The notes under the pieces are model-generated. The model saw only the letters and a program-made list of their open reading frames with translations, was not told where the DNA came from and ran no database searches. A program made the translations under genes and the position numbers. From an uncultured Alphaproteobacteria bacterium (GTDB lineage: Bacteria > Pseudomonadota > Alphaproteobacteria > Micavibrionales > CSBR16-224): 64,000 bases of DNA. The stretch spans positions 124,001-188,000 of the forward strand of contig CATLPD010000003.1 in the NCBI GenBank assembly GCA_950054485.1, given 5' to 3'. Of this stretch, positions 47,199 through 54,403 are shown piece after piece; within the stretch, counting starts at the first letter, position 1, and each line of letters opens with the position of its first letter.

Positions 47199-48002
47199 TT
47201 ACTTCACATCAAGCTTGCTGAGGTGGGCGACGACAGTCCCATACGAGCTGTTAATTTCCATACGAACCGGCAGCAAAGGCCCTTTTTCTTTTAAGGAAGC
47301 AAACCAGATTTCGGGCAATTTGCCGCGCTCGGCCGTATGGTTCTGAATGGCCATCCAGCCTTTGCCTTGGTCGTCTTCGGAAAAGCCCTCCAGCGGCAGG
47401 ACCGATATGGTGCATTTCAGTGCAGGGCCGTTATAAATTGAATATTCAGGTGAATTGATTTGGTCTTGTTTGGAATTGGTCAGCTGGATGTTGAATTTTC
47501 TTTTACCATCAAAGGCCGTTGCCGCCGTATTACATTCGCCGGTATTTTCAACCTGTTTAACCGCAATCATTACAGCGCTCAAAAGGTCTACAGCGTTGCT
47601 GACTAGATTGGGTTTTAAATTATCTTTTTCGCGTTCCGCATCTTTATAGCGCTCGATATAGCTTTTGATTTTCCCATCTTCAAAGACCAGTTCTTTTTGT
47701 TTGGGTTTATTGCGCCAGACACTGGTAGATGTATGTTTTGCGGGAATAAAGACATCGCCGTCAAATTTCCCGATTGTGGTGTATTGACCGCTCCACGGGA
47801 AAAGCTTGCCGATAAAACCGCCCGTTTTGGCCTGAACCTGTACTGTCAGATTATCATCTGGCTCGCCCGATAGTAGGTAGTTGGCTTCGACCGCTTCAAA
47901 ACCACCCGCATATACATCATAGCCCAGATTATAGCTATTCGCATGGGCAGGGGCGGTCATGATCAGGCCGGCTAATGTCAATAATGTCGCAAATTTCTTC
48001 AT
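47199..48002 (-). CDS. DUF3108-type periplasmic protein
   Basis: The 267-residue protein starts at MKKFATLLTLAGLIMTAPAHA, a signal peptide; an in-frame upstream start overlaps the usher-like gene. The mature part has the DUF3108 layout: LGYDVYAGGFEAVEANYLLSGE, a KHTSTSVWRNKPKQKELVFEDGKI middle and a LPEIWFAS...LPVRMEINSSYGTVVAHLSKL ending. Function of DUF3108 is unknown; the fold is a beta-rich periplasmic/outer-membrane associated one. It begins 10 bp after the usher-like stop, so the two are cotranscribed. Confidence 0.8.
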   Translation of the reverse strand: MKKFATLLTLAGLIMTAPAHANSYNLGYDVYAGGFEAVEANYLLSGEPDDNLTVQVQAKTGGFIGKLFPWSGQYTTIGKFDGDVFIPAKHTSTSVWRNKPKQKELVFEDGKIKSYIERYKDAEREKDNLKPNLVSNAVDLLSAVMIAVKQVENTGECNTAATAFDGKRKFNIQLTNSKQDQINSPEYSIYNGPALKCTISVLPLEGFSEDDQGKGWMAIQNHTAERGKLPEIWFASLKEKGPLLPVRMEINSSYGTVVAHLSKLDVK

Positions 48003-48012
48003 CTGTTCAGCA

Positions 48013-51000
48013 TCATCCTTTTTCGGGCTGCGCATTTTCATCGTTTAATGCAGTTTCTGCTGGTTTATACGCATGTGTATATATATTCACCTGACAGGGA
48101 ATTTCAAACTGCGCGAGTGATCGGCAGGCTTGTTCGACATCTTCGATGCTGTTGCGGGCCGTCTCGGCGCGGATCCAGAATTTCTTATCATCCGGATCAC
48201 GTGATAAACTTTCAAGCGGGTCCAGAACTTCTATACTTTGGCGGATATAGGTTTTGGCACGTTTCAGTTTCAACATATTTACACCCGCGGCAATGCGCGA
48301 CGCAAAAGGGCCGATGCGCATACTGGCCGATGTTTTGCCAATTTTTTGCAAAACCTTCGGATTCTTTCGGCTTTGCGGTTCAATATCGCTATCGAAGCTG
48401 TAGCTGATCGGTGTGCCCTCGACCAGATCGAAGTTTTGATCATATACAGTCGTGCCGTCGGGTTTGAAGACCAGCAGTTCAGGCGATGGCATTTGATAGT
48501 TTGCGCGCTTGGCGATTTTATAGTCGGTAACAAGGTAATATATGCCGGGCGGAATATCGGTGAAAACATAAAAACCGTCATACGCTGTATATGTGCTTTG
48601 AATAACTTCGCCCCATGGTGCGATCAGGCTCATTTTAAACTGACGCGCCGGTGTTTTTTGTTCTTCGTCTTCTATAAAGTTTACGTTGCCGTCCATCTCT
48701 CCAGCCACCACAATCGGGAACTGAAGCTCCTTTACAACACCGGGACGAGGCCTGAGTGATATTCCAGGGTTGCTGGAAATATAAAATGGATCATATAGTG
48801 TTTCGCGGTCAATCTTAATATCTGTGATGCGCCCCTGCGGCAAATCAGGAATGAAGGCGACCCCCTTCGAGTCTGAAAAAGCTTTGCGACTAGCTTGTAC
48901 GGCGTTCAGCTGCGCACCCTCTATCAGTTCTTCATTTTCGTCATAAATTCCGTTTCCGTTTGCATCCAGAAAAATAGAGGCAGATACACCACCAGTGTTG
49001 GTTAGGCGTTGATTAAACAAGTCGACATCGTTCGTGGTGGGGTTGTAGCCTACGCCAAATCTCACATTCAAGGCGGCTTGAATTGTTTTGTCGGTGTCGA
49101 TGCTGAAACGTGGTGAAATCGTCGCTTGATCCGTTTTCCAGTTCATGGTTCCGGTCAGTTCTGTGCGGCTTGGATCTACGAAATGTTCAACTTCAGCCAA
49201 TCCGCTGATGTCGCGGGTAAATGGATAGTTATAACTGGCGAATAAAGACTGCAACCTTGAATCCGGTGTAATGTTATAATTTGAAGCGAGGCGATAAAAT
49301 CCGCCTTTGTAGTATCCGCGTAAATTTGTTGTGTAAAGTAAGGTGTCGTCAGATGTGCCGTTTAAATTATCAAGGTTTCTATAGGACAAAGAGTTATTCA
49401 AAATCAAATTACGAAGTCGTGTTGAATAGGTCGCGTCCAGATCGGTTGCGGAATTCCCGGACGCAAATTCTTGATATCTGGCGTTGGCGGCATAATTCGC
49501 ATTATAATCGAAAAAGCCTTTTGCTGGCCCATTCAGATTTAGGTTTGCCCGTAAAACCGTCGGATTAATTTCGTCTAGTGGGGCGGGTTGAAAACCGTCT
49601 GTTGCAGCGAATAGGCTGGCCCTGGCGGAATGTGCGCCGAAATTACGGCGTGCAATGGCCTCTGCTCCAAATTCACTTTCGCTGGCTTCGTACCCTAAAT
49701 TCAGATCTAAAAAAGTATCTGCGACATATGTATTCAGGCCGCTTTCCAGATAATAGCGGCGTTGATCCCCTTCATCACGCGTTGATAGTCCGGCAAATCC
49801 CGAAATATTTTTTCCAAGGCTACGGTTGAAGCGTGCGTTTAAGACAGGCGTGCCGTCTTGTGGGCGTTCAAAATCTTCGGCCTCGTAGGTCACTTCGTTC
49901 GCGCGCGTTAAAGATACGTCATATGTTGTGCCTTGGTTTGCAAAAGTATCCGAATTAACGGGGACGCTCTCGACACGCTCGCGAATCTCGCCTTGTGGGC
50001 CATATAATACAATCCTAAAATTGTTTTCCCCGGCAAATAGGGGGATATCAAGAAATTCGTATTGACCGTTATCTTCAATCGTTTGGTTAGCCAGTAGGCG
50101 ATCGTCGCGATAAAGCTCAACATCCCAGCCTGGTTGGGCATCACCGCGAAAAAATGTTGTGTTTAAACCATTCGAGCTGTCTTTATCTGCGTTGGTAACA
50201 CGCACCCCTTGTTCTTGTGGTGAATTACTGCTGATTTCTAACCGCGTCGGGTCAATATCTCCAAAGGAAAAATATTTGGCCTTTAGGGGGCCTAGCAAAT
50301 CAGGCTCAAGGCTATCTTTCTCAAAGCTAAGGCGCACGGTGCTTATTGGCGTATCATCGTCCCCACTTACATAGGCTCGCCCGGTCAGGTATGCGACATC
50401 CCCTGCACCTATAACTGAATAAGATGCACGTTTTCGCGCGTCAGAATCTTCGCGTTTAAAATATGAGCCGCGTAAATTGACATCGAAAAAGGGAATGCCT
50501 AGTGCGCTATATTCCAGCTCCTCATAGGGCAGCGTTGGATCGTTTCGGCTGGTGTAAATGCCGGCATTTTTTTTCTGGCGGGCAGCGCGCTCTTCGGCTG
50601 GTAGGGGCTGTTCAGATAAAATTTGTACCCTGAGTTCCTCGTAATTATAAAGAAATTTTAAATTAAACCATTTTTCAAGCGCGGTTGACTGGGCATAAAT
50701 ATCGCCATCCAGCTCAAAGGCTTCTCCGTTTTCTATTGGATATTCAGTGCCGTTGATCACAACTTTACCGTTCGGCATATCAAGTGCAAAAATCTGATTT
50801 TCGCGTATGTACCAGCCTTCGGCGGTGCCATCGTCCTGATCAACAAAAATAGGGAAATCAACGGCACCAAAAAAATCTTCCAGCAATACATCCATGCCAT
50901 AGGACTGTTTGATTGCAATGATATCGAAGTTTAGTGCGATCTTCTTTGGGCCCGCCACCAATTGTAGAATCAGTTCCTCTCCATTCGGAATGCGATTCGC

Positions 51001-51225
51001 GTCTGCTAAAGCCGGATTTAAAATTTCTTGGCTGCGCCCTTCAGCTTGATCAAGTCCGCTACCTATGCGCGTGACAAATTCTTTGGCCAGCCCCATAAGG
51101 TCAGACCGGGACAGATCACTATTTTGCTGCGCATGCGCATTGCCTAGCCCCAGTGAAACCAAAGCCGTGCAAAGGATACAGGCACGTTTAAACGTGCGTA
51201 ATTTTGAATTAATAATATATGTCAT
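48013..51225 (-). CDS. Usher-like outer-membrane protein with SPOR-like C-terminus
   Basis: The product is 1070 residues from ATG 51225 (a GTG at 51246 is possible; neither has a clear Shine-Dalgarno). A signal peptide ends about residue 32 (NAHA|QQ). Residues about 70-240 are a periplasmic domain with FNLKFLYNYEELRVQIL and PLPAEERAAR, usher-like. A long beta-rich region (about 240-740) fits an outer-membrane barrel. A DANGNGIYDENEE loop (about 754), which should bind Ca2+, precedes two carboxypeptidase-regulatory-like folds. The final 100 residues (about 961-1050, SMRIGPFASRIAAGVNML) resemble a SPOR domain. It would secrete the divergent DUF4402 subunits. Confidence 0.72.
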   Translation of the reverse strand: MTYIINSKLRTFKRACILCTALVSLGLGNAHAQQNSDLSRSDLMGLAKEFVTRIGSGLDQAEGRSQEILNPALADANRIPNGEELILQLVAGPKKIALNFDIIAIKQSYGMDVLLEDFFGAVDFPIFVDQDDGTAEGWYIRENQIFALDMPNGKVVINGTEYPIENGEAFELDGDIYAQSTALEKWFNLKFLYNYEELRVQILSEQPLPAEERAARQKKNAGIYTSRNDPTLPYEELEYSALGIPFFDVNLRGSYFKREDSDARKRASYSVIGAGDVAYLTGRAYVSGDDDTPISTVRLSFEKDSLEPDLLGPLKAKYFSFGDIDPTRLEISSNSPQEQGVRVTNADKDSSNGLNTTFFRGDAQPGWDVELYRDDRLLANQTIEDNGQYEFLDIPLFAGENNFRIVLYGPQGEIRERVESVPVNSDTFANQGTTYDVSLTRANEVTYEAEDFERPQDGTPVLNARFNRSLGKNISGFAGLSTRDEGDQRRYYLESGLNTYVADTFLDLNLGYEASESEFGAEAIARRNFGAHSARASLFAATDGFQPAPLDEINPTVLRANLNLNGPAKGFFDYNANYAANARYQEFASGNSATDLDATYSTRLRNLILNNSLSYRNLDNLNGTSDDTLLYTTNLRGYYKGGFYRLASNYNITPDSRLQSLFASYNYPFTRDISGLAEVEHFVDPSRTELTGTMNWKTDQATISPRFSIDTDKTIQAALNVRFGVGYNPTTNDVDLFNQRLTNTGGVSASIFLDANGNGIYDENEELIEGAQLNAVQASRKAFSDSKGVAFIPDLPQGRITDIKIDRETLYDPFYISSNPGISLRPRPGVVKELQFPIVVAGEMDGNVNFIEDEEQKTPARQFKMSLIAPWGEVIQSTYTAYDGFYVFTDIPPGIYYLVTDYKIAKRANYQMPSPELLVFKPDGTTVYDQNFDLVEGTPISYSFDSDIEPQSRKNPKVLQKIGKTSASMRIGPFASRIAAGVNMLKLKRAKTYIRQSIEVLDPLESLSRDPDDKKFWIRAETARNSIEDVEQACRSLAQFEIPCQVNIYTHAYKPAETALNDENAQPEKG
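51182..51197. repeat. 16-bp perfect palindrome in the usher signal-peptide codons
   Basis: GCACGTTTAAACGTGC reads the same on both strands. It encodes part of the usher signal peptide (KRACI), so it could be chance, but it lies 40 bp from two other perfect palindromes. Confidence 0.45.
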
Positions 51226-51235
51226 ACGTATAGAA

Positions 51236-51260
51236 GAAGTGATCACTTCACTTTAAAGTG
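51236..51260. promoter_or_regulatory. Two adjacent perfect palindromes between divergent surface-fibre genes
   Basis: GAAGTGATCACTTC (51236-51249, 14 bp) abuts CACTTTAAAGTG (51249-51260, 12 bp). Both are perfectly self-complementary and share the GTGA/CACTT core, as expected of two operator half-sets. They sit just upstream of the usher-like ATG and in the leader region between the two divergent arms. No sigma factor consensus can be assigned with confidence in the AT-rich spacer (51261-51442). Confidence 0.5.
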
Positions 51261-51442
51261 TAGCGCCTTCCGACTGATTTTAATAGAAAAAAAATAGAAT
51301 AAAATTTTCACAAAAACTGTAAAAAACTTTTTGCGTTAACTTCGTTTTAACCAGTCGCACGGCATACTGGAGGAGTGTGGCCCATTATTTTATTCAAAAA
51401 TGGTGGTCTTTATTTACAACCTCAAGAACCGAGGAGACAAAA

Positions 51443-52012
51443 ATGAAAGTCTTGAAACAAACATTAAAAGCATCTGCTATTGGTGCAATTACAGCCTGTA
51501 TGGTTTTCGGCATGATGGATGCCAAGGCTGAAGATGCAGGTACAAACATTACAGCGCAGGTAACAAACACAATTACGTGGGTGGAAACACAGGCGTTGGA
51601 TTTTGGTGAATTTACAGCGCTATCGCATACAGCGGACGTTTCTACAATTACAATCGATCCGACAACAGGTGCGCCAACATATGGTAACCCCGGTAGTGCG
51701 AGGATTACAGAGATTACAGCGGGTGATCGTGGTATCTTTGACGGCTCGGGCATTGCGCCGAGTGTATCTATGACACTAACTCTACCAACTGCTGACGTAA
51801 CATTGACATGTGGTACATGTACTGGTGGTAACCCGACCTTTACAGTACCGTCAGCCAACTTTACATCTGACCCTGCCGTCGGTGCCGTATCATCTGATGC
51901 CGGTGGTCTTGTCACAGTTGGTGTGGGCGCGCGTTTGACAACAATCGCGACAGCGGCTCCATATGAAGATGGCGCGTATTCAGGTGCCTATACCGTATCG
52001 CTGAACTACTAA
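51443..52012 (+). CDS. DUF4402-type fibre subunit (probable major subunit)
   Basis: The 189-residue protein starts at ATG 51443, 4 bp after GAGGAGAC; an upstream start adds 22 unlikely residues. The signal peptide ends near residue 29 (MMDAKA|ED). The mature protein is beta-rich and Thr/Gly/Ala-rich, with the DUF4402 pattern (DFGEFTA near the start, VGVGARLTT and a Y..GAYTVSLNY ending). A Cys pair (LTCGTCTGG) is present. It is likely a pilus or fibre subunit exported to the periplasm, taken up by the adjacent PapD-like chaperone and secreted by the divergent usher-like protein. Confidence 0.8.
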   Translation: MKVLKQTLKASAIGAITACMVFGMMDAKAEDAGTNITAQVTNTITWVETQALDFGEFTALSHTADVSTITIDPTTGAPTYGNPGSARITEITAGDRGIFDGSGIAPSVSMTLTLPTADVTLTCGTCTGGNPTFTVPSANFTSDPAVGAVSSDAGGLVTVGVGARLTTIATAAPYEDGAYSGAYTVSLNY

Positions 52013-52032
52013 TATAATATAAAAAAGAATGT

Positions 52033-52070
52033 GCCGTCGCGGTCTTTGTATTGCGGCGGTATTTTCTTTT
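52033..52070 (+). terminator. Probable attenuator between the two subunit genes
   Basis: GCCGTCGC (52033-52040) pairs with GCGGCGGT (52053-52060) as RNA, with one U-G wobble and an outer G-U, around a 12-base loop, followed by ATTTTCTTTT. It lies between the two subunit genes, 21 bp after the first stop, so it would end most transcripts of the first gene and let some reach the second subunit, the chaperone and the lipoprotein. Confidence 0.6.
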
Positions 52071-52105
52071 ATGGACTTCTGAAACATATAATTTATATTT
52101 TTATT

Positions 52106-52552
52106 ATGAGATTTTTTCTAACAATCGCATTTTTGTTACTTTCTTTGCCCGCGATGGCGGCGGTGACGGTTACACAACCACTGACATTTGGGGAATTCGC
52201 ACTGACGGATAATTCAGCCCCACGCAGTATGTCTATATCGGCGCTTGGGGTTCTGAGTAAGGATACTCAATTCGTTACAATTATCCCGCCACAAGAGGCA
52301 ATTGTTGATGTTTCAGGCTTTCCGACAAAAACCAACCTGATTATAAACATCACATTTAACAATTTAACGTCTGTGGATGGCGGTGACAGTTTTACGATTT
52401 CAACGCCTAATATCAGGCCGAACAACCCCAAAACAGACAATGCGGGTGAGATTACCCTTAGAATTGGCGCAACATTAACAACGTCAGGCGGCGGGGGATT
52501 TTACCCGGACAGCACATATAATGGTTTAATGACGGTATCTGTAAACTACTAA
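52106..52552 (+). CDS. DUF4402-type fibre subunit (probable minor subunit)
   Basis: The 148-residue protein starts at ATG 52106, at MRFFLTIAFLLLSLPAMA, a clear signal peptide; no good Shine-Dalgarno precedes it (AT-rich leader), which suggests low expression. The mature part resembles the first subunit in layout: TFGEFALTD, RIGATLTTSGGGGFYPDSTYNG and a final LMTVSVNY. It could be a tip or minor subunit, sharing the chaperone. It follows the probable attenuator. Confidence 0.75.
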   Translation: MRFFLTIAFLLLSLPAMAAVTVTQPLTFGEFALTDNSAPRSMSISALGVLSKDTQFVTIIPPQEAIVDVSGFPTKTNLIINITFNNLTSVDGGDSFTISTPNIRPNNPKTDNAGEITLRIGATLTTSGGGGFYPDSTYNGLMTVSVNY

Positions 52553-52564
52553 CAAGGATTAAAA

Positions 52565-53401
52565 ATGAAACGTTTTGCAGTCTTCACATTGGTTTTATTA
52601 GCTTTGGTTATGGTTGAGGCCGCGACGGCCAGGGCTGACCTTTTGATAACACCGTTGCGTGCTGTTTTCGAGGGGCGTGACAGGTCAACGGTTATTACGC
52701 TGATTAATACAACCGATGCCCCGAAGACCTATCGTTTAGACTGGAAGTTGTTAAAGATGAAAGATGACGGGGCCTATGACCAAGTCGATGAATTTATCGA
52801 CGAAGATGGCATTAACCGTAGCGCGGAAGATATGATCCGCTTTAGCCCTCGCCAAGTCACCTTGGAGCCACAAGGCCGTCAGCGTATACGACTGTCGCTT
52901 CGTCGTCCTGCTGATTTAAAAGAGGGCGAATACCGTGCCCATTTAAATATTGTCCGCCTTCAAGATGATTTCCAGCCAAATGTTCCGGGTGAAATCAGAG
53001 GCGCTGCGATTTTAATGCAGGTTAATCTGGGGTTTTCAATTCCTGTGATTGTGCGTCAGGGCAAATCAATGCCATCTGTAGAAATTACGAACCCCCGGTT
53101 TGAAACGGATACGGATGCCAAGGGGAATGCCGTGCCGGAACTTGCTGTTGACTTGATTAATAATGACTCAGATTACAGTGCTTATGGCCGCATACGCGTG
53201 TTTTGGCACCCGAGTGGCGGCGAAGCACGACAAATTGGAATTTTAAACAATATTGCCGTTTATCCTGAGAACAAGAATAGGCGAGCGACTGTCAGGCTTG
53301 AAGAAAGCAATTTATCGAATGGCCGCATACAAGTTGTCTATGAAGGCGATGGCGAATACAAAGGCGTTGTGTTCGATAACAAGGCCTTCCCGATTCAGTA
53401 A
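52565..53401 (+). CDS. PapD-like periplasmic chaperone
   Basis: The 278-residue protein has a signal peptide (residues 1-24, ending ARA|DL) and a two-domain Ig-like fold: LLITPLRAVFEGRDRSTVITLINTTD (first strand pair), IRFSPRQVTLEPQGRQRIRLSLRRPADLKEGEYRAHLNI (a PapD-type G1/F1 region) and a C-terminal domain of about 110 residues (FEVNPRF-like, ELAVDLINNDSDYSAYGRI). These hallmarks match chaperone/usher chaperones, though it is less canonical than PapD or FimC. AAGGA precedes its ATG. It is 12 bp from the second subunit gene. Confidence 0.85.
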   Translation: MKRFAVFTLVLLALVMVEAATARADLLITPLRAVFEGRDRSTVITLINTTDAPKTYRLDWKLLKMKDDGAYDQVDEFIDEDGINRSAEDMIRFSPRQVTLEPQGRQRIRLSLRRPADLKEGEYRAHLNIVRLQDDFQPNVPGEIRGAAILMQVNLGFSIPVIVRQGKSMPSVEITNPRFETDTDAKGNAVPELAVDLINNDSDYSAYGRIRVFWHPSGGEARQIGILNNIAVYPENKNRRATVRLEESNLSNGRIQVVYEGDGEYKGVVFDNKAFPIQ

Positions 53402-53422
53402 GTAGATTATTAATATTTTATA

Positions 53423-53453
53423 TTGCCCTAAGCGTCTGAATAACTTAAAGTTA
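53423..53453 (+). promoter_or_regulatory. Possible internal promoter with dyad
   Basis: TTGCCC (53423-53428), 17 bp, TAAAGT (53446-53451). The -10 overlaps the near-palindrome TAACTTAAAGTTA (53441-53453), which resembles CACTTTAAAGTG at the usher/subunit divide. It would serve the AMIN lipoprotein gene at 53561. Confidence 0.35.
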
Positions 53454-53560
53454 TAAGGTGAGTACTTTGGGGTTCTAAATTTATGCCGTTCGTTCTGAAC
53501 ACGCAGATACAGAAAACATACCCGCATAACAAGCCTTCTTTATACAGAAAAGGGGTTTCT

Positions 53561-54403
53561 ATGCTTGGGATTCTGTGCGTTTTACTTCTGCTCACATCAT
53601 GCTCTGATAAAGATCAAAGCCCGTCTACCCCTCCACTCACAACCAGTTCAACCGTAACGCCGCAATCAGATTCAATGGAAACCCTTCAGGCATTATCAGC
53701 CCCAAAAGGGTTGAATACAAAACGTCTGTTTGCCGAGCCTGTCAGCGATCAGGGCGCGCGGTTTAACCGCCTTGAACGCGAAGTTCAAGACTTGCGTGAT
53801 GATTTTGATATCGTTTCGCCAGCCATAACACGTCTTGTCGCGGTCGAAGAAGATATGCGTGATTTGATGGATCAGTTGGAAACGCTGGTCGCAGCTGACA
53901 GCGCGAATGACCAGATTATCGTTCAGAATGTGCCTGAACCTATGGCTGTACCGCCACTCGCCCCAGCACCTGCACAGGCCCCGATACTCACAACGGCGCC
54001 GACACCTGTAACCCAGCCATTGGCAGCCCCGACACCAATCGATACGGCAACAGCGGCCAGCATAGTTAAAGATCTTCGTATCGGCGAGCATACAGATAAA
54101 ACCCGTCTGGTTCTGGATATGACAGCCGAGGTACCATATAAGGCAACATTGAATGCCGATGGTATGGGGGTGGTTTTGATTTTGCCGAATACGGCATGGT
54201 CAACCGACCAAAGCTGGTCGTCGAATGTTTCGCCAATGGTTAAATCTTACAAAGCAACGCCGGCTCCAAACGGCGGTACACGTCTTGATATAGCCTTTAC
54301 AGAAAAAGCCAGCCTTAAGTACAACAGCTATATAAAGCCACGCAATGGCATGTCACGTCTTGTGATTGATCTGTTTTCATCCGAATTACATCTGGCGCAA
54401 TAA
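53561..54403 (+). CDS. AMIN-domain lipoprotein
   Basis: The 280-residue product starts at ATG 53561 after AAAAGGGG (an upstream ATG at 53483 lacks a site). A lipobox LTSC gives Cys14. A Ser/Thr/Pro-rich linker and an amphipathic coiled segment (RLEREVQDLRDDFDIV) lead to a Pro-rich stretch, then an AMIN-like domain at about residues 190-275 (DLRIGEHTDKTRLVLDMTAE, ending SRLVIDLFS). AMIN domains bind peptidoglycan or pull AmiC-type amidases and secretins to the division site. Together with the SPOR-like usher tail this suggests anchoring of the fibre to the wall. That link is inference. Confidence 0.75.
   Translation: MLGILCVLLLLTSCSDKDQSPSTPPLTTSSTVTPQSDSMETLQALSAPKGLNTKRLFAEPVSDQGARFNRLEREVQDLRDDFDIVSPAITRLVAVEEDMRDLMDQLETLVAADSANDQIIVQNVPEPMAVPPLAPAPAQAPILTTAPTPVTQPLAAPTPIDTATAASIVKDLRIGEHTDKTRLVLDMTAEVPYKATLNADGMGVVLILPNTAWSTDQSWSSNVSPMVKSYKATPAPNGGTRLDIAFTEKASLKYNSYIKPRNGMSRLVIDLFSSELHLAQ

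Follow-up and report, generated by a model that had tools for sequence, protein, structure and literature searches.

A DUF4402-Type Chaperone/Usher Locus with SPOR-Like and AMIN Domains on the Usher and Its Partner Lipoprotein

The window, that is, the whole 64,000-nucleotide stretch of DNA that was analyzed, encodes a complete DUF4402-type chaperone/usher locus, in which an usher and two DUF4402 subunits are accompanied by a PapD-like chaperone and a lipoprotein with an AMIN domain. It is read as a chaperone/usher fibre system carrying predicted wall-binding domains on the outer-membrane pore and on a partner lipoprotein, an add-on that recurs and has apparently not been described before. In the open-access literature we found no relevant paper on chaperone-usher systems with SPOR, on DUF4402 (PF14352), or on an usher with a peptidoglycan-binding domain; a subscription paper could exist. 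The best explanation, which we consider probable, is a fibre system whose assembly platform is tethered to peptidoglycan. The gene set and coordinates given by an earlier note on this DNA were borne out. Its observation largely holds, and its interpretation is supported for the SPOR-like and AMIN domains, not for the DUF3108 protein nor for a replacement of the usher C-terminal domains. The features of the locus are as follows.

48013..51246, minus strand: usher of the DUF4402 system, 1077 aa including its signal peptide (ORF, Pfam; AlphaFold model matches FimD/PapC)
48067..48339, minus strand: SPOR-like tail domain of the usher, approximately residues 970-1060 (profile, fold)
48424..49029, minus strand: C-terminal domains of the usher, approximately residues 740-941, of SdrD_B/CarboxypepD_reg-like type and equivalent to the FimD CTDs (Pfam, model)
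49042..50496, minus strand: beta-barrel and plug of the usher, approximately residues 251-735 (matches the FimD/PapC translocation domain with a Z of about 20)
50614..50979, minus strand: predicted N-terminal periplasmic domain of the usher, approximately residues 90-211 (model secondary structure)
51443..52012, plus strand: DUF4402 subunit 1, presumed fibre subunit with a putative donor-strand-like N-terminal extension (Pfam, extension analysis; listed ORF start 51377)
52031..52062, plus strand: terminator-like hairpin between the subunit genes, possible attenuator (consensus match only; such sites are as frequent in the shuffled region)
52106..52552, plus strand: DUF4402 subunit 2, almost without N-terminal extension, candidate tip subunit (Pfam, extension analysis; listed ORF start 52031)
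52565..53401, plus strand: PapD-like periplasmic chaperone (family-level PapD_N match)
53483..54403, plus strand: accessory lipoprotein, in which a lipobox Cys (residue 40) is followed by a short helical motif, a linker rich in proline, and AMIN
53759..53887, plus strand: helical motif conserved in the lipoprotein (SPAITRLVAVEEDMRDLMDQL) and common to the SPOR lipoproteins of Alteromonadales
54050..54400, plus strand: AMIN domain region of the lipoprotein (Pfam, orthologues)

Usher, Subunits, and Chaperone

The usher had been read as a protein of 1070 residues; the identification stands, and the length is corrected to 1077 codons with a GTG start. The window usher does not match the Pfam Usher profile (PF00577), which is matched weakly to above cut-off by some members of the family (e.g., G086, G087, and G088). 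Its AlphaFold model (pLDDT 82) includes a FimD/PapC-like barrel, plug, and C-terminal domains, the outcome of a structure prediction proposed in the earlier note. Searched against the PDB with Foldseek, the model retrieved FimD/PapC with an E value of 4e-29, and the first 19 matches were all FimD/PapC; structural comparison (VIA) gave a Z of 20.9 over residues 241-941. Pfam detects SdrD_B/CarboxypepD_reg domains near the C-terminus. These had been described as a Ca-binding loop and two carboxypeptidase-like folds taking the place of the usual C-terminal domains. The model contradicts this, as it superposes on FimD through FimD residue 833, a span that includes the FimD C-terminal domains, and the C-terminal folds of the two proteins therefore correspond. 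In FimD and PapC these domains are periplasmic; the tail that follows them in the window usher is thus expected to face the wall. In two relatives, L148 and L150, PF07833 matches the region of the usher N-terminal domain.

Both subunits belong to DUF4402, as first proposed (Pfam E values of 3.5e-12 and 3.3e-9). They probably start at ATG 51443 and ATG 52106 and not at the listed ORF starts. Ahead of the first core strand, subunit 1 has 22-33 residues and subunit 2 a median of 8, as counted by a crude signal-peptide rule in a set where the window subunit 1 itself was not scored. Comparison of the subunit profile with the PDB found no pilin. The PapD-like chaperone holds at the level of the family: PapD_N was matched by 23 of 32 relatives (best E value 1.2e-8), though the window copy falls below threshold.

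With the classical systems of type 1 and P pili (FimD/PapC), the locus shares the PapD-like chaperone family and a predicted usher barrel, plug, and C-terminal domains; judged by the crude signal-peptide rule, subunit 1 of the window type may also have a donor-strand-type N-terminal extension. The locus differs from these systems by its DUF4402 subunits and by an usher below Pfam Usher detection. To our knowledge, a SPOR-like tail and an AMIN lipoprotein are absent from classical chaperone/usher systems, and we know of no wall anchor on the ushers of textbook pili.

SPOR-Like Tail and AMIN Lipoprotein

The earlier note had likened the last ~100 residues of the usher to SPOR, and had named profile searches for SPOR and AMIN as a check. 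SPOR was recovered by profile-profile and fold comparison and AMIN by Pfam. The Pfam SPOR profile (PF05036) does not match the tail of the window usher or of 27 close relatives, and is matched by other ushers of the same family; NCBIfam gave no match for the tail, and its profile found nothing relevant among PDB sequences. Aligned with SPOR sets by hhalign, the tail profile reached probabilities of 86-95% (E values from 4.9e-6 to 2.3e-8; best 95.3%, 2.3e-8), against at most 1% for the control sets (AMIN, DUF4402, and chaperone). The predicted structure of the tail has the SPOR-type order beta-alpha-beta-beta-alpha-beta, with a pLDDT of about 95 in the core. Foldseek with the tail alone returned generic ferredoxin-like matches, SPOR being absent among the 50 matches listed. 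After structural realignment (VIA), the top three were SPOR domains with middling Z scores of 6.4-6.6, led by CwlC (6.6) and RlpA (6.4), other ferredoxin-like folds lying within 1 Z. The SPOR-like nature of the tail is therefore supported by profile homology and fold arrangement, the fold match alone being weak. Two cysteines are invariant across the SPOR-like tail of the usher subfamily.

SPOR domains recognise denuded septal glycan, which a glutamine contacts in the known domains of RlpA, FtsN, and DamX (PMC6895207). At the position equivalent to RlpA Gln270, the window tail has an arginine and 20 of 26 subfamily tails an asparagine; the residue is variable in Alteromonadales ushers. In the Micavibrionales tails, the aromatic at the Phe274 position and a nearby serine are invariant. 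The loss of the glycan-contact glutamine suggests that the subfamily tail may not bind denuded glycan.

The AMIN domain claimed for the lipoprotein was retrieved by Pfam (PF11741, E value 1.2e-4, 22.5 bits for a cut-off of 20.5), and at an E value of 0.01 in 13 of 30 orthologues. Pfam and NCBIfam gave no other named family for this protein. Amidases, AmiC for example, are targeted by their AMIN domains, and the SPOR ligand is an amidase product. The lipoprotein might accordingly recruit or activate an amidase that opens a gap in the wall for the usher or the fibre, and not serve as an anchor. We consider this improbable, since the fibre's subunits are periplasmic, its assembly takes place at the outer membrane, and passage through peptidoglycan is not required.

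Recurrence and Exchange of the Wall-Binding Domains

In Micavibrionales, the SPOR-tailed usher and the AMIN lipoprotein go together. Usher, subunits, chaperone, and lipoprotein show the conserved synteny that the earlier note had made a test of its reading, the lipoprotein lying inside the fetched stretch at 33 of 38 loci. Genome-wide, the co-occurrence of usher and lipoprotein is 52/64 versus 7/78, counts that are not phylogenetically independent and that depend on usher classes assigned by hand. The DUF3108 protein is confirmed by Pfam (E value 1.4e-14), and its leftward gene probably starts at about 48002; of 142 genomes of the order, 118 have the gene, and no second case near an usher was seen among the positions compared. 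We rejected DUF3108 as a component of the system, as it is an order-wide gene that, at the positions compared, adjoins an usher only in the window.

The wall-binding domains are also exchanged. The Alteromonadales lipoprotein has a related N-terminal half with SPOR in place of AMIN (E values of 3.7e-7, 2.5e-9, 1e-5, 2.5e-11, and 1.1e-8 for L121, L149, L148, L171, and L172, respectively). The helical N-terminal part of the SPOR lipoproteins is related where compared, with a clean match in L125 (E value 5e-10). In a second group of Micavibrionales ushers, AMIN is fused to the usher itself. Ushers of Desulfobacterales, Marinobacter, and the Vibrio-like type have canonical SPOR tails and no lipoprotein, and plain ushers have neither. 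Among 109 ushers, 11 carry AMIN and 76 a SPOR-type tail; on the usher tree, at least 8 changes are counted for SPOR and 2 for AMIN. A separate peptidoglycan-binding protein is absent at 14/14 loci with canonical SPOR tails and at 11/11 plain-usher loci, and one to three are present at 18/18 Alteromonadales-type loci. These architectures are nearly exclusive of one another. The swap in the lipoprotein and the fusions to the usher indicate that two unrelated peptidoglycan-binding folds occupy one slot. In a phylum-wide sample of 12 ushers drawn without regard to tail, five have SPOR or SPOR-like tails. About half of the family in this sample is without a peptidoglycan-binding part, which is therefore not needed for assembly as such.

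The association of ushers with SPOR and AMIN is not local chance. Peptidoglycan-related genes lying fortuitously beside an usher would explain DUF3108, given its distribution; for AMIN and SPOR, the recurrence of synteny, fusions, and exchange across classes and phyla contradicts such an origin, which we regard as extremely unlikely.

The distribution of the glycan-contact residue bears on the function of the tail. Loss of the glutamine is confined to tails whose loci also have a separate lipoprotein; the position is occupied by Gln (10) or His (2) in 12 lipoprotein SPOR domains and, as read by eye, by Gln or His in canonical tails without lipoprotein. The diverged SPOR-fold tail might thus no longer bind glycan and instead dock the lipoprotein, or the chaperone-subunit complex, so that the lipoprotein alone would touch peptidoglycan. 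The two invariant cysteines, which may point to a domain that has been stabilised or changed, are consistent with this possibility, and the invariant aromatic and serine of the Micavibrionales tails speak against it. Furthermore, most contacts of RlpA with glycan are made by its main chain (PMC6895207), so that binding could survive the loss of the glutamine. We hold a docking role to be possible, though on balance somewhat doubtful.

Proposed Tethering of the Assembly Platform

In the tethering model that we favor, subunit 1 would polymerise through the usher by donor-strand exchange and subunit 2 would sit at the fibre tip. The periplasmic SPOR-fold tail of the usher and the outer-membrane AMIN lipoprotein (SPOR in Alteromonadales) would jointly link the pore to the cell wall and hold the platform against pull on the fibre. 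By analogy with PilQ, this link may also place the platform at denuded or septal peptidoglycan, at the division site or the new pole.

Such placement could even be the main purpose, SPOR and AMIN bringing the usher to septal peptidoglycan and fibres thereby emerging from the new pole. This is a variant of anchoring, and both can hold together. AMIN is known in proteins without septal placement too, and the window tail has lost the glutamine. The recognition of denuded septal glycan by SPOR domains (PMC6895207) argues for recruitment, as does the type IVa pilus secretin PilQ, whose AMIN domains bind peptidoglycan, place the pore at the septum and poles, and are required if type IV pili are to be recruited to midcell or the poles (PMC5285504, PMC10653833). 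Septal or polar placement of the usher system, coupled to the division site, is plausible; as its main purpose, we view it as a tentative option. As in PilQ, AMIN in the window locus would be associated with the outer-membrane pore of a fibre system. However, pore and fibre are unrelated to those of PilQ, AMIN is borne by a lipoprotein or follows the usher as a fusion, and in relatives its place is taken by SPOR.

With the division proteins FtsN, DamX, and RlpA, the system shares the SPOR domain, at profile level in the window tail and as canonical Pfam SPOR in ushers and lipoproteins of relatives; unlike in these proteins, SPOR is joined to a fibre assembly pore. In its presumed general role, the lipoprotein can be likened to accessory lipoproteins of pilus machines such as the pilotin Tgl, from which it differs by its lipobox, helical motif, and exchangeable AMIN or SPOR domain. 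A more far-reaching scenario, which we judge unlikely in its entirety, would see a widespread chaperone/usher branch of peptidoglycan-tethered ushers targeted to the division site or pole. Two unrelated folds, SPOR and AMIN, would repeatedly have been given one role, whether on the usher or on its partner lipoprotein, and the usher tail would have turned to docking after binding had passed to the lipoprotein.

The branch in which the usher or a linked lipoprotein bears SPOR or AMIN spans Alphaproteobacteria, Gammaproteobacteria, and Desulfobacterota, and makes the anchoring of these fibres to peptidoglycan, or their placement by it, directly testable. A 2019 paper (PMC6895207) assigns every known SPOR protein to division or morphogenesis, and a role in fibre assembly would extend the use of this domain. 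The survey also gives an identity to DUF4402 and to the usher-family genes, which are currently annotated "carboxypeptidase regulatory-like domain-containing protein."

Organization of the locus and identity of the usher

The chaperone/usher locus spans 47.2–54.4 kb of the window and belongs to a genome of 2.28 Mb. The usher gene is followed in the same direction by a DUF3108 gene, while the rightward half carries two DUF4402 genes for the fibre subunits (sub1 and sub2), then the chaperone and lipoprotein genes:

47199–48041, minus strand: DUF3108 gene
48013–51246, leftward: usher gene, 1077 codons
50614–50979, within the usher gene: N-terminal domain region
51443, rightward: likely true start of sub1
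52106, rightward: likely true start of sub2
52565–53401, rightward: chaperone gene
53483–54403, plus strand: lipoprotein gene

According to Pfam, two window proteins match DUF4402 (3.5e-12 and 3.3e-9) and the usher contains SdrD_B/CarboxypepD_reg close to its C-terminus; Usher, PapD, and SPOR had no match among the window proteins. PF00577 is significant in a few members of the usher family only. An AlphaFold model of the usher, resting on 33 relatives (pLDDT 82), gave FimD and PapC as all of Foldseek matches 1–19 (E down to 4e-29), and its residues 241–941 superpose on FimD 131–833 (Z 20.9). Judged from this model, the protein is a real usher. Since the superposition covers them, the two carboxypeptidase-like domains are predicted counterparts of the FimD C-terminal domains and not, as the earlier note had it, their replacements. 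PF07833 (Cu_amine_oxidN1) matches the N-terminal domain of two related ushers, L150 and L148 (5.5e-9 and 7.4e-6), hinting at a chaperone-binding N-domain that is not of the classical kind.

PapD_N matches 23 of the 32 chaperone family members, the window chaperone not being among them. The profile of this family (alignment A6) is closer to the Gram-positive WxL-interacting protein (PDB 9i25/9i1y, E about 4e-5) than to PapD, and Pfam WxLIP_PGBD matches five of the 32. By a simple rule for signal-peptide sites, on which these lengths depend, sub1 has in Micavibrionales an N-terminal stretch of 22–33 residues ahead of the first core strand and sub2 a median of 8. Given this longer stretch and the donor-strand mechanism of classical pili, we infer by analogy that sub1 is the polymerising subunit and sub2 the tip subunit. 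A terminator-like 13-bp stem with a T-rich tail (52031–52062, plus strand) lies between the two genes, shuffled sequence being equally rich in such sites. Fimbrial operons with attenuation have such a stem between subunit genes.

The DUF3108 protein (Pfam, 1.4e-14) had been counted as part of the locus. This is not borne out by the order, in which 118 of 142 genomes have DUF3108, away from the usher at the compared positions and adjoining it in the window only. Judging by position only, it may be co-transcribed with the usher. The window's DUF3108 gene has no second copy in its genome; its probable start near 48002 lies some 10 bases past the usher stop.

The usher tail and the AMIN lipoprotein

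The last ~135 usher residues are predicted with confidence to form a beta-alpha-beta-beta-alpha-beta fold (core pLDDT about 95). In the structural comparison, SPOR domains ranked highest (CwlC, Z 6.6; RlpA, Z 6.4), with further ferredoxin-like folds scoring close to them, so by itself this match is not decisive. Profile comparison of the tail family with SPOR sets, drawn from loci of the same usher family, gave probabilities of 86 to 95% (best E 2.3e-8, E-values being for single comparisons), whereas control profiles (AMIN, DUF4402, chaperone) reached at most 1%. The window-type tails match Alteromonadales usher tails (97.7%, E 1.5e-12), which themselves match SPOR (97.5%), and several lipoproteins and ushers within the SPOR sets independently exceed the Pfam cut-off. 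At the level of sequence profiles, the comparison decides for SPOR homology, and the proposed resemblance of the last ~100 residues to SPOR stands although Pfam finds none.

Glycan is contacted by a conserved Gln in RlpA, FtsN, and DamX (PMC6895207). At this position, type I tails (those of window-like Micavibrionales ushers) have Asn in 20 of 26 and Arg in four, the window included, and Alteromonadales usher tails are variable (Q in 1/18). Separate SPOR lipoproteins (n = 12) have Gln in ten and His in two; canonical usher SPOR tails, read by eye, likewise show Gln or His. Usher tails retain the aromatic residue at the F274 position. Alteration of the Gln position where a lipoprotein exists, and its retention in separate SPOR lipoproteins, suggests that the usher tail may have changed role there.

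The predicted AMIN lipoprotein was recovered by Pfam (1.2e-4 in the window copy, over the cut-off; 13 of 30 orthologues at 0.01). In all 30 the lipobox cysteine is invariant, and they share a short helical motif (consensus KPxIVRLxAIExDIQxLxxQL) and a linker rich in proline along with the AMIN region. Further related AMIN proteins, unlinked to an usher, occur in many genomes across the order.

Distribution of the system

Usher relatives are present in 96 of the 142 Micavibrionales genomes and form two groups. Type I ushers have the SPOR-like tail; type II ushers end in a fused AMIN (Pfam, 9/16 tails) or a canonical SPOR. Synteny is conserved, the AMIN lipoprotein lying in the same stretch as subunits and chaperone at 33 of the 38 type I loci read, in varying gene order. 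Genome-wide, the full-length lipoprotein occurs in 52/64 type I genomes versus 7/78 others (sets typed by hand, uncorrected for relatedness). The window's genome has a second usher locus (L071, G000:C3:52257-54839), with chaperone and subunit-like genes and no SPOR/AMIN tail, which is a natural within-genome control. In a close relative (L033, G005:C100), the usher stands alone between DnaK-like and homogentisate-dioxygenase-like genes, named by eye; the lipoprotein candidate is on a different contig.

Outside the order, relatives were found in Alteromonadales, Vibrio, Marinobacter, Pseudomonas, Halomonas, Desulfobacterales, Granulosicoccus, Acidobacteriota, and others. The usual Alteromonadales order is sub1-sub2-chaperone-usher-lipoprotein. 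Here the lipoprotein, with its lipobox and a helical motif related to the Micavibrionales one, ends in SPOR instead of AMIN. The motif profile matches at 5e-10 in L125 and more weakly elsewhere, some matches being inflated by proline-rich composition. Pfam recognizes SPOR in the lipoproteins of L121 (3.7e-7), L149 (2.5e-9), L171 (2.5e-11), L172 (1.1e-8), and the alphaproteobacterium L148 (1e-5), and in the usher tails of Pseudomonas tumuqii (1.6e-11), Granulosicoccus (2.6e-13), and Desulfobacteraceae (5.5e-11). Three Desulfobacterales ushers (L127, L128, L129) carry about three tandem SPOR repeats. A phylum-wide draw of 398 genomes yielded the usher in 12 others, five with SPOR or SPOR-like tails and seven with none.

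A putative peptidoglycan-tethered platform

Of 109 ushers, a SPOR-type tail is present on 76, AMIN on 11, and neither on 22; the profiles behind this count were built partly from the same sequences, and some short type I tails score weakly. A quick tree was made for 91 ushers with the tail left out, using the N-terminal domain, the barrel, and the C-terminal domains. On it the SPOR label changes at least eight times and AMIN twice, gains and losses counted together. In representative loci, canonical-SPOR ushers (14/14) and plain ushers (11/11) have no separate SPOR/AMIN protein nearby; Alteromonadales-type loci, Woodsholea included, have one to three (18/18).

The best explanation of these sequence patterns would be an assembly platform tethered to peptidoglycan by the usher tail and the lipoprotein. 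What speaks most strongly for it is the occurrence of two unrelated wall-binding folds in the same place, on usher or lipoprotein. In the open-access literature searched, we found no paper that connects ushers to SPOR or to a domain binding peptidoglycan, and no mention of DUF4402. For a possible septal or polar placement, the closest parallel is PilQ, whose AMIN domains bring the type IV pilus machine to the septum and poles (PMC5285504, PMC10653833).
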